From the NCBI GenBank assembly GCA_017406905.1, contig JAFQXN010000006.1, positions 124,001 through 188,000 on the forward strand: DNA of 64,000 nt, written 5' to 3'. Source of the stretch: Candidatus Saccharimonadota bacterium (lineage in GTDB: Bacteria > Patescibacteriota > Saccharimonadia > Saccharimonadales > Saccharimonadaceae). Of this stretch, positions 1 to 50,444 are shown in pieces (the first letter of the stretch is position 1; every line of letters starts with the position of its first letter). A model generated the notes under the pieces. That model worked only from the letters and a program-made list of their open reading frames with translations, made no database searches and was not told the origin of the DNA. The translations under genes were made by a program, and so were the position numbers.

Positions 1-456
1 CAAAATCCGTTCGTCGTACCCCTCGTAGTGAGGGCATAGGATGATGTAATGTGTGGCAGGAGTGGCTGAAATGCCCTTTTCGAAGGGCCTAAGACTTGGG
101 CGAGCGCCCCGGAGCGGCCCGAGAAAAGGGCATTCAGGCAGAACTCCTGCCATCCACTGCGCCATACTCTGATTCCACACCTCACCTACAGGGGTAGGCA
201 AAATCACCTTCGCACTCGGATCCTTAGCTTTAACGGACTCAATAGCTGCAAACACCGGCTCACAACGTAACAACATTCCGTCACCACCTCCATAAGGCGT
301 ATCATCTACGCTTCGGTGTGGCCCCAGTCCAAACTCACGTAAATCCACAAAATCAAACCCCGCCAGCCCTTTATCTACCGCCTTCCACATCATCGAAGTC
401 TTTAGATATGGCTCTATTGCCTCCCGGAACAACGTAATAACAGTAAATTTAATCAT
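1..456 (-). CDS. trmD: tRNA (guanine-37-N1)-methyltransferase TrmD, 3' end cut by window edge
   Basis: TrmD methylates G37 next to the anticodon and prevents frameshifting. The 152 visible residues begin MIKFTVITLFRE and contain the TrmD hallmarks DDTPYGGGDGM (about residues 58-68) and, near the window edge, HYEGYDERI, which belongs to the SAM-binding trefoil knot. The C-terminal part lies outside the window. The start at 456 lies 6 nt after a TATAAT box (463-468), so the message is probably leaderless. About 30 residues between the WNQSMAQWM helix and the ILCPHYEG strand have no place in ordinary TrmD and coincide with a long palindrome at 55-151. The insertion keeps the frame, so the enzyme is probably functional. 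Confidence 0.93.
   Translation of the reverse strand, partial: MIKFTVITLFREAIEPYLKTSMMWKAVDKGLAGFDFVDLREFGLGPHRSVDDTPYGGGDGMLLRCEPVFAAIESVKAKDPSAKVILPTPVGEVWNQSMAQWMAGVLPECPFLGPLRGARPSLRPFEKGISATPATHYIILCPHYEGYDERIL
55..151. repeat. Palindromic element inserted in frame in trmD
   Basis: A 97 bp imperfect palindrome. Outer arms GGCAGGAGT (55-63) and ACTCCTGCC (143-151) are exact complements, and inner arms AATGCCCTTTT (70-80) and AAAAGGGCATT (124-134) pair perfectly. The loop holds a further hairpin, GGGCGAGCGCCC. Read on the + strand the core AAGACTTGGGCGAGCG resembles AAGACTTGGCCAGAGCG of the element between nusG and rplK. In trmD it adds roughly 30 residues between two conserved motifs. 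Core orientation is opposite to the gene, unlike in queA and typA. Confidence 0.75.
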
Positions 457-17403: not shown

Positions 17404-19279
17404 TACGATTTTCTCGCTTTCTTTTTACTGGATCAAGCTGTCGCTTGCGCAATCTCAAAGATTTTGGCGTCACTTCTAATAACTCATCATCAAGCAAAAA
17501 ATCCAAACATTGTTCAAGCGACAATTGTGTATAGGGTGTCAACTGAATCGCTCCGTCTGATGCGTGAGTCCGCATATTGGTTAATTGCTTTTCGCGACAG
17601 ATATTAATGTCTAAATCATCTTTCTTATTGGATAACCCTACAATCATCCCCTGATACACTGGTACTTGCGGTGGTATAAACAAAGTACCGCGCGCCTGCG
17701 CTGCATCCAATGCGTATGCGGTAGACACGCCATCTTCAAACGAAATCAGAGCCCCATTTCGCTCCGGCTTAAATCTTCCCTCTACTGGGCGATAACCGGC
17801 TGGAATGCTAGACATTATTACCGTGCCCTTCGTGGCGGTTAGCAGATTATTCCTCAGCCCAATCAACGCCGCCGTGGAAATTTCATATACAAATCTCGTA
17901 TTCCCAGAAGTAGTGACTTCTTGGGATTTCATCTCGGCCTTCCTGATGCCTAACTCTTGCGACACTGCGCCCACAAATTCCGGCGCTACTTCCACAGTCA
18001 AATTTTCAATCGGCTCTGATTTTACGCCATCAATCTCGCGATAAACCACTTCTGGCCGCCCCGCCTCAAGCTCATAGCCCTCACGTCGCATTGTTTCTAT
18101 CAGCACGCTCAAGTGCAATTCGCCTCGCCCTGACACTTTGTAGCCCAAGCCATCTGGCTCAATCTTCAAAGCTATATTAGTTTCGAGCTCCCGCTCTAAT
18201 CTCTCTGCAATTTGCCGTGAAGTCGTAAAATCGCCTTCACGTCCCTTAAGTGGTGAAGTATTTGGTCCAATATATATAGAAAGCGTAGGCGCTTCCAGCT
18301 CGATTGTCGGCAAAGCTTCTGGATTATCTCCTGTAGCAATTGTATCGCCAATATTTGCCTCAGCTATACCTGTCAAAGCCACAATATCCCCCGCAATCGC
18401 CTTTGGCACTTCTTCCTTCGCCAAACCACGATATGAAAAAATCCGGTCAATCTTGGCAGGCAGCACTTTTAATCCATCTTCTTCTGGTATGCTTGAGGCC
18501 GTTCGGCCAAGCTTACAATCCTCAGAAGATAGGTTAATATGTTGCATTAGCTTGATATTTTGGCCCTTCTTCAGCTTCCCCTGAAAAATCTTCCCAATAC
18601 AATACTTCCCCAGATAATTATCGCTCGCCAGTGCCGCCACCAATAATTGCGCTGATTCCGAATCAGCTTCCACGCTTGGCGCTGGAATATCGTTAATAAT
18701 CGCCTCAAAAATCACATGTAAATCGTCGTCTAGCTCGGTAGTTTTCCCCGCCCTACCCTCTCGCGCTACTGCATAGTATACCGGGTAAAAAAGCTGCGAC
18801 TCTTCCGTGGCCAGCTCAAGAAACAAACTCTCTATTTCATCTTCCACCTCTGCAATGCGCGCCGCTGGCTTATCGATTTTATTAATAATCACCACAGGCT
18901 TTAATTTCAAATCTAGTGCTTTCTGTAAGACGAATTTCGTCTGTGGCATTGGGCCTTCTTGCGCATCTACAATCAAAAGCACGCCATCCGCCATATTGAG
19001 CGTCCGCTCCACTTCTCCAGAAAAATCCGCGTGCCCTGGCGTATCAATAATATTGATTTTATAATCATTATAATACACGCAAGTCTGCTTAGCCGTAATG
19101 GTAATCCCTCTTTCATGCTCCTGATCCATCGAATCCATAATCAAAGTCTGCTGCATCTCCGCCTGATTATCGCGAAAAGTATGAGACTGCTTCAAAAGAC
19201 CATCTACAAGCGTAGTCTTACCGTGGTCTACGTGTGCAATTATAGCCACATTCCTAATTCTGTCTTTGTTTAAAACCAT
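17396..19279 (-). CDS. typA: Ribosome-associated translational GTPase TypA/BipA
   Basis: TypA is an EF-G-like GTPase that helps ribosome assembly. The 627 residues include P-loop [22 protein letters not shown] and the C-terminal BipA domain. Residues about 245-270 (including [13 protein letters not shown]) are an extra loop in domain 2 encoded by a palindromic element, and the same peptide occurs in QueA. The ATG at 19279 is preferred over an in-frame ATG at 19288: the latter overlaps the TATAAT box (19287-19292), while 19279 lies 7 nt after it and matches the family's N-terminus. Confidence 0.95.
18469..18547 (-). repeat. Palindromic element in typA, sister of the queA copy
   Basis: About 79 bp. 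On the minus strand the arms TTAACCTATCTTCTGAGG and CCAGAAGAAGATGGATTAA pair with small mismatches around the core AGCTTGGCCGAACGGCC (within 18495-18515). Core and adjoining CTTCTGAGGA are identical to the queA element, in the same orientation and reading frame, giving [12 protein letters not shown] in both proteins. Confidence 0.8.
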
Positions 19280-29340: not shown

Positions 29341-32879
<3,539 letters not shown>

Positions 32880-46055: not shown

Positions 46056-46622
46056 TTATTTGGTTGCTTCCTCAGTCGGCTGCTCTTCTGCCGGCTTCTC
46101 TTCGGCAGACGCTTCAGCTGGCTTTGCGGTTACGGTCTCAGGCTTGTTTTCCAAACCGGAAACAATACCATTGATGCCAGAAAGAAGCGTATCGACGACC
46201 TGTGCAATAAGCTCGTTTTTGGTTGGAAGATTACCGAGAGTGGTGACTTCATCTTTGGAAAGAGCAGCGCCATCGCTTCCGAAGCCACCCACTAATTCCA
46301 TCTTTGCGTGAGTTTTTGCAAATTTTGTCAAAACTTTCGCAGCGTCAAAATCTTCATCCGAACCAAGAGCGTACAAAAGTTGGCCAGTTAAGCCAGAAGT
46401 CTCGGTGTCTTTATAAGCCGCAATTTCTTTCATCGCGACTTTCACCAAGCGGTTCTTTACCACTTTTATTTTTACGCCCATCTCACGAGCCATTTTGCGA
46501 AGCTCTTGCAACTCTGCCACGGTCAAACCTTCGTACTTAGCGTATACGACCATCTTTGAGTTGTTAAGCAGTTCCGTCAAATCAGCAACCAACGTAGTCT
46601 TTTTATCTTTTGAAATTGCCAT
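46056..46622 (-). CDS. rplJ: 50S ribosomal protein L10
   Basis: 188 residues. It anchors L7/L12 on the ribosome. N-terminal [31 protein letters not shown] and [14 protein letters not shown] are typical; the tail is Glu/Ala/Thr-rich. An L10-type leader precedes it, implying autoregulation by L10-L12 binding. AAAGGA lies before the ATG. Confidence 0.97.
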
Positions 46623-46745
46623 AAAAAGTTCCTTTGGTTATGTTAATATTTGGCTAGCTAATTGTTAAGCGTGCGTCACCAAACAAATTTAAGAAAATTC
46701 CTCGGTGGCATAATTAAGAGTACACTCCGCCACTGTCTTTGGTAA
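46623..46745 (-). promoter_or_regulatory. Ribosomal protein L10 leader RNA
   Basis: The transcribed leader contains AAAGACAGTGGCGG (from 46740 down) and, after a short hairpin, GCCACCGAGG (46699-46710), which match the paired kink-turn segments of the known L10 leader. L10 (with L12) binding there would repress rplJL translation. Confidence 0.75.
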
Positions 46746-46753
46746 CTGCCCTA

Positions 46754-46782
46754 ATTATACCACTAAGCATAAATAAATGCAA
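46754..46782 (-). promoter_or_regulatory. rplJL promoter
   Basis: TTGCAT (46777-46782), 17 bp, TATAAT (46754-46759) preceded by TGG, about 130 bp before rplJ, directly upstream of the L10 leader. Confidence 0.7.
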
Positions 46783-49768: not shown

Positions 49769-49797
49769 ATTATAACAATAAAAGCTAAAAAAGTAAA
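49769..49797 (-). promoter_or_regulatory. rplKA promoter
   Basis: TTTACT (49792-49797), 17 bp, TATAAT (49769-49774), giving a leader of about 40 nt with a Shine-Dalgarno. It lies between the nusG-side palindromic element and rplK. Confidence 0.6.
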
Positions 49798-49799
49798 GA

Positions 49800-49895
49800 G
49801 GTATGAATATTTGCAAATGTGCCCTAAGGGACATGAAGACTTGGCCAGAGCGGCCTGGAGCGTGCCCTTCGGGCACGCTTGCAAATATTCATACC
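49800..49895. repeat. Intergenic cloverleaf palindromic element between nusG and rplK
   Basis: Outer arms of 17 bp (49800-49816 and 49879-49895) are perfectly complementary. Inside lie three hairpins: ATGTGCCC/GGGACAT, GGCC/GGCC within ACTTGGCCAGAGCGGCCTGG, and CGTGCCC/GGGCACG. The middle one carries the family core. It starts 3 nt after the nusG stop, and on the minus strand T-rich sequence follows, so it may also end secE-nusG transcripts. Confidence 0.85.
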
Positions 49896-49898
49896 TTG

Positions 49899-50444
49899 CT
49901 AAAGCTGTTTTACTTGCAACGCATCAAGCTCGACTGGCGTCTCACGCCCAAACATCGACACCATCACTTTCAGCTTACCCTTAGCCGCATCAATCTCTGA
50001 AATCGCGCCATCAAATCCCTTAAATGGCCCGTCTGTGATGGACACCACTTCCCCAACTTCATACTTCACGGAGAATTTTGGATCTTCTACACCCATTCGT
50101 TTCTTGATTTTAGTGATTTCTTTCTCTGAAACTGGTGTCGGTTGAGTGCCAGTACCAATAAATCCAGTCACGCCAGGTGTATTGCGTATGATGTACCACG
50201 TCTCGTCTGACAATTTCATATCCACCAATACATAACCTTGCAAAATCTTCCTATCTACGATTTTGCGCTTTCCGTTTTTAATTTCAATTTGTTTTTCCTT
50301 TGGCACAATTGCCTCAAAAATCTTGTCAGCCATTTCTACCGTGCCAGTTCGCTGATTTATTGAATCCGCCACTTTGTCTTCGTAGCCACTATACGTAGAA
50401 ATCGCATACCAAGCCCGCGTATCATCATATCTGTTTACAGCCAT
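49899..50444 (-). CDS. nusG: Transcription elongation factor NusG
   Basis: 181 residues. The NGN domain (AWYAISTYSGYEDKVADSI, GYVLVDMKLSDETWYIIRNTPGVTGFIG) is followed by a KOW domain (EVGEVVSITDGPFKGFDGAISEID). It couples RNA polymerase to ribosomes or Rho. AAAGGA lies before the ATG, 13 nt after secE. Confidence 0.97.
   Translation of the reverse strand: MAVNRYDDTRAWYAISTYSGYEDKVADSINQRTGTVEMADKIFEAIVPKEKQIEIKNGKRKIVDRKILQGYVLVDMKLSDETWYIIRNTPGVTGFIGTGTQPTPVSEKEITKIKKRMGVEDPKFSVKYEVGEVVSITDGPFKGFDGAISEIDAAKGKLKVMVSMFGRETPVELDALQVKQL

Follow-up and report, generated by a model that had tools for sequence, protein, structure and literature searches.

Element in the nusG–rplK spacer

Within the window (the whole 64,000-nt stretch of DNA analyzed), the spacer between nusG (49899..50444, − strand) and rplK (ribosomal protein L11; 49292..49720, −) contained a 98-nt element of inverted-repeat type (49799..49896; apex-sense strand +), which the covariance model recovered at 55.8 bits (E 5.5e-12). 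The element lay where the first-pass annotation had placed it, between two features: (i) the stop codon of nusG, whose end at 49899 was 2 nt from the element, and (ii) the rplK promoter TTTACT-17-TATAAT with a TG ahead of the −10 box (49769..49797, −), whose −35 hexamer, beginning at 49797, was separated from the element by 1 nt and which had the same layout in element-free relatives. An Rfam L10 leader was present upstream of rplJ elsewhere in the window (46613–46760, −).

The segments 49799–49830 and 49865–49896 paired at 91% complementarity and constituted the top short-range inverted repeat of the window. The inverted repeat was exact for 18 nt at both element ends, with the 91% complementarity reaching on to 32 nt: the left stem arm AGGTATGAATATTTGCAA (49799..49816, +) was locus-specific and occurred nowhere else in the window except as its own inverse, and the right stem arm (49879..49896, +) was its exact reverse complement. 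DNA folding of the + strand gave a 17-bp outer stem (49799–49815 with 49880–49896) at −33.9 kcal/mol (z −8.8; 0 of 200 shuffles equally stable), reproducing the perfect outer stem and three hairpins of the first-pass annotation: (i) hairpin 1 at 49817..49834 (+); (ii) hairpin 2 at 49840..49858 (+), with the apex GGCC-AGAGC-GGCC, whose GGCC/GGCC pairs showed no variation across the Bifidobacterium alignment (see below); and (iii) hairpin 3 at 49859..49879 (+), formed by GCGTGCCC and GGGCACGC. The conserved core AAGACTTGGCCAGAGCGGCCTGGAGCG (49836..49862, +) was shared with other copies. Under RNA parameters, the minimum was a single long interrupted rod (z −8.4, 171-nt region), and thus the earlier description as a cloverleaf is true of single-stranded DNA and not of RNA.

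Copies in the genome and genus

The core had been assigned to a family, rightly: at least 10 dispersed copies were found in the 0.58-Mb, 13-contig Saccharibacteria genome (Nanosyncoccus genus) from which the window came, seven by BLAST (the window copy and six other places) and another three, inside the window, with the covariance model. These three were all inserted in frame: (i) in trmD (66..140, +), antisense to the gene; (ii) in queA (30078..30152, +), sense to the gene and with perfect 16-bp arms; and (iii) a weak copy (18465..18538, −; E 0.0083) in a gene named as TypA/BipA-like GTPase by sequence reading, without a family search. The last copy is probably decayed; the peptide it encoded was set beside the queA insert peptide (12 residues each). 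Across the genus, matches were found in 29 of 60 genomes, with a maximum of 12 per genome. The three-hairpin plan recurred in dozens of other copies, supporting the suggestion that the nusG–rplK copy is the intact form of the element, for which the first-pass annotation had named the lack of any other such copy as the adverse outcome.

The copies shared a nearly invariant apex, AAGACTYGGCCnGAGCGGCCYGGAGCG, situated mid-stem, and the stem around it (mostly 16–30 bp) was paired everywhere and different in sequence at each locus. Mean arm length was 22.7 bp in 94 Saccharibacteria copies and 25.5 bp in 67 Bifidobacterium copies. In Saccharibacteria copies, the apex usually lay between two small self-complementary segments (hairpins 1 and 3), which were usually replaced by a GAC/GTC stem in Bifidobacterium copies. 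When 38 Bifidobacterium copies were aligned on the apex, 95.7% of cells paired vs. 30–45% in slid controls, and 19 of 23 stem pairs differed on both sides around the constant apex hairpin. The Bifidobacterium copies had common outer ends A|G...C|G with G-rich starts. No terminal consensus was found in the Saccharibacteria copies, in which gene copies and spacer copies each had a weak arm consensus of their own; the common outer ends and the weak arm consensus count against arms made purely from the target.

Two side observations concerned copy architecture. A spacer version in which an additional shared outer repeat (about ATTAACTTAAGCAT...ATGCTTAAGTTAAT) enclosed the core, and which came closer to classical MITEs, was seen at L069, L071, L076–L078, L083, L084 (G043), and L081 (G047). 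At L371 (G060:C1:1843971-1844044) of B. catenulatum subsp. kashiwanohense, a second, variant-core hairpin was located near the main copy; from this case, copies seem to cluster.

Distribution across taxa

The exact apex pattern was present in two phyla. In the Saccharibacteria order it was restricted to the genus of the window (8 of 43 genomes), with none in 252 genomes of other genera, and it was also present in 38 of 151 Bifidobacteriaceae genomes (control hits 0). The covariance model under strict filters gave no hit across another 197 genomes from the class of Bifidobacterium (Actinomycetes), and an apex scan of 84,980 species returned, among the matches listed, Saccharibacteria and Bifidobacteriaceae only. 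The apex flank differed slightly between the two groups, being mostly CAT in Saccharibacteria and CGT in Bifidobacterium, and therefore cross-contamination of assemblies would be insufficient as an explanation.

The core had no match in phages and plasmids, and none in viral contigs. A tRNA-derived origin, suspected from D-arm-like letters, was rejected after ARAGORN and Rfam showed no tRNA there. The literature search, which covered few subscription journals, turned up no account of elements of this type in either Saccharibacteria or Bifidobacterium, and a family of small mobile hairpins with fixed tip and locus-specific stem is apparently undescribed.

Empty and filled sites

The sequence comparison was also applied to sites with and without the element. 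Of the 30 genus genomes read, most had a short (34–98 nt), element-free nusG–rplK spacer; same-place copies with differing stems were found in G000 and G047, a copy with reversed core in G025, and other hairpin inserts in G004, G046, and G050. The CTTTACTTTTT stretch adjoining the window copy was also present in two element-free relatives (L107 and L117) and thus lies outside the insertion. The tsaD loop (VYANW to LALVVSGG) was empty in 31 genomes, with 42–66 nt and arms of at most 9 nt, and filled in about 25 others, with in-frame inserts bringing it to 84–234 nt, mostly 11–31 nt arms, and several kinds of core. For a B. catenulatum locus, the search for empty sites returned only five filled orthologues, the spacer of other species being too diverged. 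No target-site duplication was seen at the nusG–rplK and tsaD empty sites, among genomes that provided no near-identical empty/filled pair.

At L182/L035 and L023 of tsaD, the right arm spanned the FPLL codons, a stretch that the empty genes conserve; the left arm reproduced the reverse complement of these codons as written in its own genome (about 11 nt exact, two copies). This left arm, an inverted copy of target codons, is the most direct sign of a stem built from the target; at other sites the arms stopped short of conserved codons, and the inverted target copy was clear at tsaD alone. Sites were independently re-used with unrelated stems: gatA four times, tlyA three times, a glycosyltransferase gene three times, and an exonuclease gene and a DegT-type gene each more than once.

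In-frame insertion was observed in conserved protein genes including trmD, queA, tsaD, lepA, leuS, tlyA, topA, gatA, and uvrB, among others, and the genes bearing inserts retained their family-level matches. Structured inserts within essential genes might bring to mind an RNA intron, which the message would lose, or a translational-bypass element, which would be skipped, but the inspected copies in conserved genes were in frame and stop-free, neither of which a removed element would need, and there is very little chance that such elements are at work here, the least of any reading considered.

Other inserts shared these sites. Several additional families of inserts, with different cores (such as CCCGTAACGACGGGC, CAAGGCCGTTCGGCC, and TTCTTCAGCGGGACTTGAA) and locus-specific arms, were found in the tsaD loop (L197, L189, L190, L212, L213, L146, and others) and at nusG–rplK (L109 and L110). 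In-frame palindromes with 13–20 nt arms and no recognizable core were found in the same insertion loops of lepA (L150) and tsaD (L198); these are possibly remnants or core-free events. In 12 genomes (G053, G043, G023, G045, G030, G050, G052, G058, G037, G020, G018, and G046), lepA (EF4) was present in two open frames, separated at the palindrome-insert loop (L199–L210) by roughly 0.5–3 kb of intervening sequence, and in G030 the lepA halves were on opposite strands.

Strand preference and stem changes

Stem mismatches were asymmetric between strands: on the apex-sense strand, G.T exceeded A.C by 67 vs. 35 (p 0.002) in Saccharibacteria and by 45 vs. 18 (p 0.0009) in Bifidobacterium, and gene-antisense copies had the same excess (20 vs. 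7, p 0.019), these p-values being approximate since the copies are partly related by descent. Pairing in mRNA would reverse the excess in gene-antisense copies, and its retention thus points to single-stranded DNA and not mRNA. In single-stranded DNA folding, the apex-sense strand was the more stable one in 75 of 93 (75 vs. 18) and 48 of 64 (48 vs. 16) copies. These results point to the folded apex-sense DNA strand.

The same data bear on an RNA element acting on mRNA as a terminator, attenuator, or RNase III processing site, a role that the first-pass annotation had offered in the form of a co-opted terminator or processing site. Such a role would suit the very stable fold, the numerous spacer copies, and the position of the window copy at the end of nusG ahead of the rplK promoter, but it is improbable, and co-option as a terminator unsupported at sequence level, on several counts: (i) the G.T excess tracks the apex-sense and not the transcribed strand, and in the window copy the G.T-favoring strand is not the one transcribed from nusG and rplK; (ii) the T-rich stretch is the −35 region of rplK and is older than the insertion; (iii) no terminator-like site, with a GC-rich stem running straight into a T run, was found; (iv) many copies lie within open reading frames; and (v) Rfam 15 gave nothing above the gathering score, with miRNA matches below threshold only.

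In pairs of orthologous copies (L219/L222; L238/L280, upstream of a dnaJ-like gene; and L028/L063), the apex was kept and the stems had diverged pairwise. Orthologous Bifidobacterium copies displayed wobble intermediates, and one and the same stem pair was T-A at three of five near-identical loci and G-C at the other two. Paired changes of this kind can be explained by compensatory selection or by template switching, which creates and mends hairpin stems (PMC8794818).

These paired substitutions with their wobble intermediates and the single G-C/T-A double difference, together with the semi-conserved stem ends in Bifidobacterium and the weak arm consensus in Saccharibacteria, would fit an ordinary MITE-like element that brings its stem along on insertion, the stems then diverging under pairing selection with no target copying. 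That account is unlikely, though to be taken seriously: two tsaD copies hold inverted FPLL codons of their own genome, the stems at re-used sites are wholly different, and lasting pairing in a dead MITE copy has no known reason.

Comparison with known systems

Two sources (PMC10969869, PMC2229807) describe Rickettsia palindromic elements (RPE; Ogata et al. 2000) as palindromic repeats of about 100–150 bp, grouped in several families that are characterized by terminal inverted repeats; in a small-genome bacterium, they occupy spacers and also conserved protein genes, where they are inserted in frame. The present family resembles these nearest in kind, by description, but the phyla differ and its copies share the apex alone, with terminal stems unlike at each locus; the shared terminal inverted repeats of RPEs and MITEs are lacking from it, and it is therefore not filed as RPE. 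Template-switch (quasipalindrome) mutations likewise generate inverted repeats, or make them more perfect, in a single event that copies arm from arm (PMC8794818, PMC8604942), but these are local, whereas here a conserved foreign apex centers each palindrome. The coding palindromes of Nematomorpha mitochondria are also locus-specific inverted repeats inside coding sequence, but they encode conserved protein sequence in both arms, and the abstract describing them mentions no shared apex element (PMC6649704).

REP/REPIN–RAYT elements and bacterial MITEs are, like the present family, short, dispersed, gene-free hairpins, but here in-gene insertion is frequent and terminal repeats are not shared in Saccharibacteria. 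A RAYT/IS200-type REP element mobilized by Y1 transposase would share with the family the hairpin, the single-stranded DNA strand preference, and the dispersed copies; it is nevertheless highly improbable, given that two of the 60 genus genomes had Y1_Tnp (PF01797), neither of them copy-rich, and that a fixed end tetranucleotide (such as GTAG) was absent from Saccharibacteria, with A|G...C|G in Bifidobacterium only. The search for an enzyme serving the element yielded none. In integron attC sites, recombination acts on one folded DNA strand, structure is more conserved than sequence, and the ends are conserved with a variable middle. The present family is the reverse, with conserved apex and variable ends.

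Proposed mechanism and significance

The preferred reading, given a probability of roughly 55%, is that of a palindromic mobile element, small, non-autonomous, and shared horizontally, with a stem made or repaired by fold-back copying; confidence is strong for the mobile-element part and moderate for the stem-copying part. We infer mobility by a single-stranded DNA route with fold-back synthesis and a recognizing protein. The fixed part would be the 27–60 nt apex, probably recognized by protein as a single-stranded DNA hairpin of the apex-sense strand, and the stem would not belong to it. Once the apex had reached a new site, the nascent strand would fold back on it by its 3′ end and copy the adjacent target, leaving one native arm and one new inverted copy; any later mutation in one arm would be matched in the other, by copying or by compensation. 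Copies would survive in spacers, and also in essential protein genes if in frame and stop-free, and the nusG–rplK copy would be a spacer insertion of such an element. More tentatively, and with the odds somewhat against it, the hairpin tip may be the sole heritable part in this class of mobile DNA, which would move as one folded strand, build its stem at each new site by inverted target copying, and have passed between Saccharibacteria and Bifidobacterium.

Small palindromic elements known so far are defined by conserved ends, whereas here the tip is conserved and the ends are site-specific; this arrangement suggests another DNA insertion route and points to a tip-binding factor. The inserts also constitute a natural experiment on the insert tolerance of essential proteins. 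Finally, a 27-nt tip common to one Saccharibacteria genus and Bifidobacteriaceae and absent from the 197 other Actinomycetes and 252 other-genus Saccharibacteria sampled suggests contact between the two groups, and it may be speculated that one of them lives on the other.
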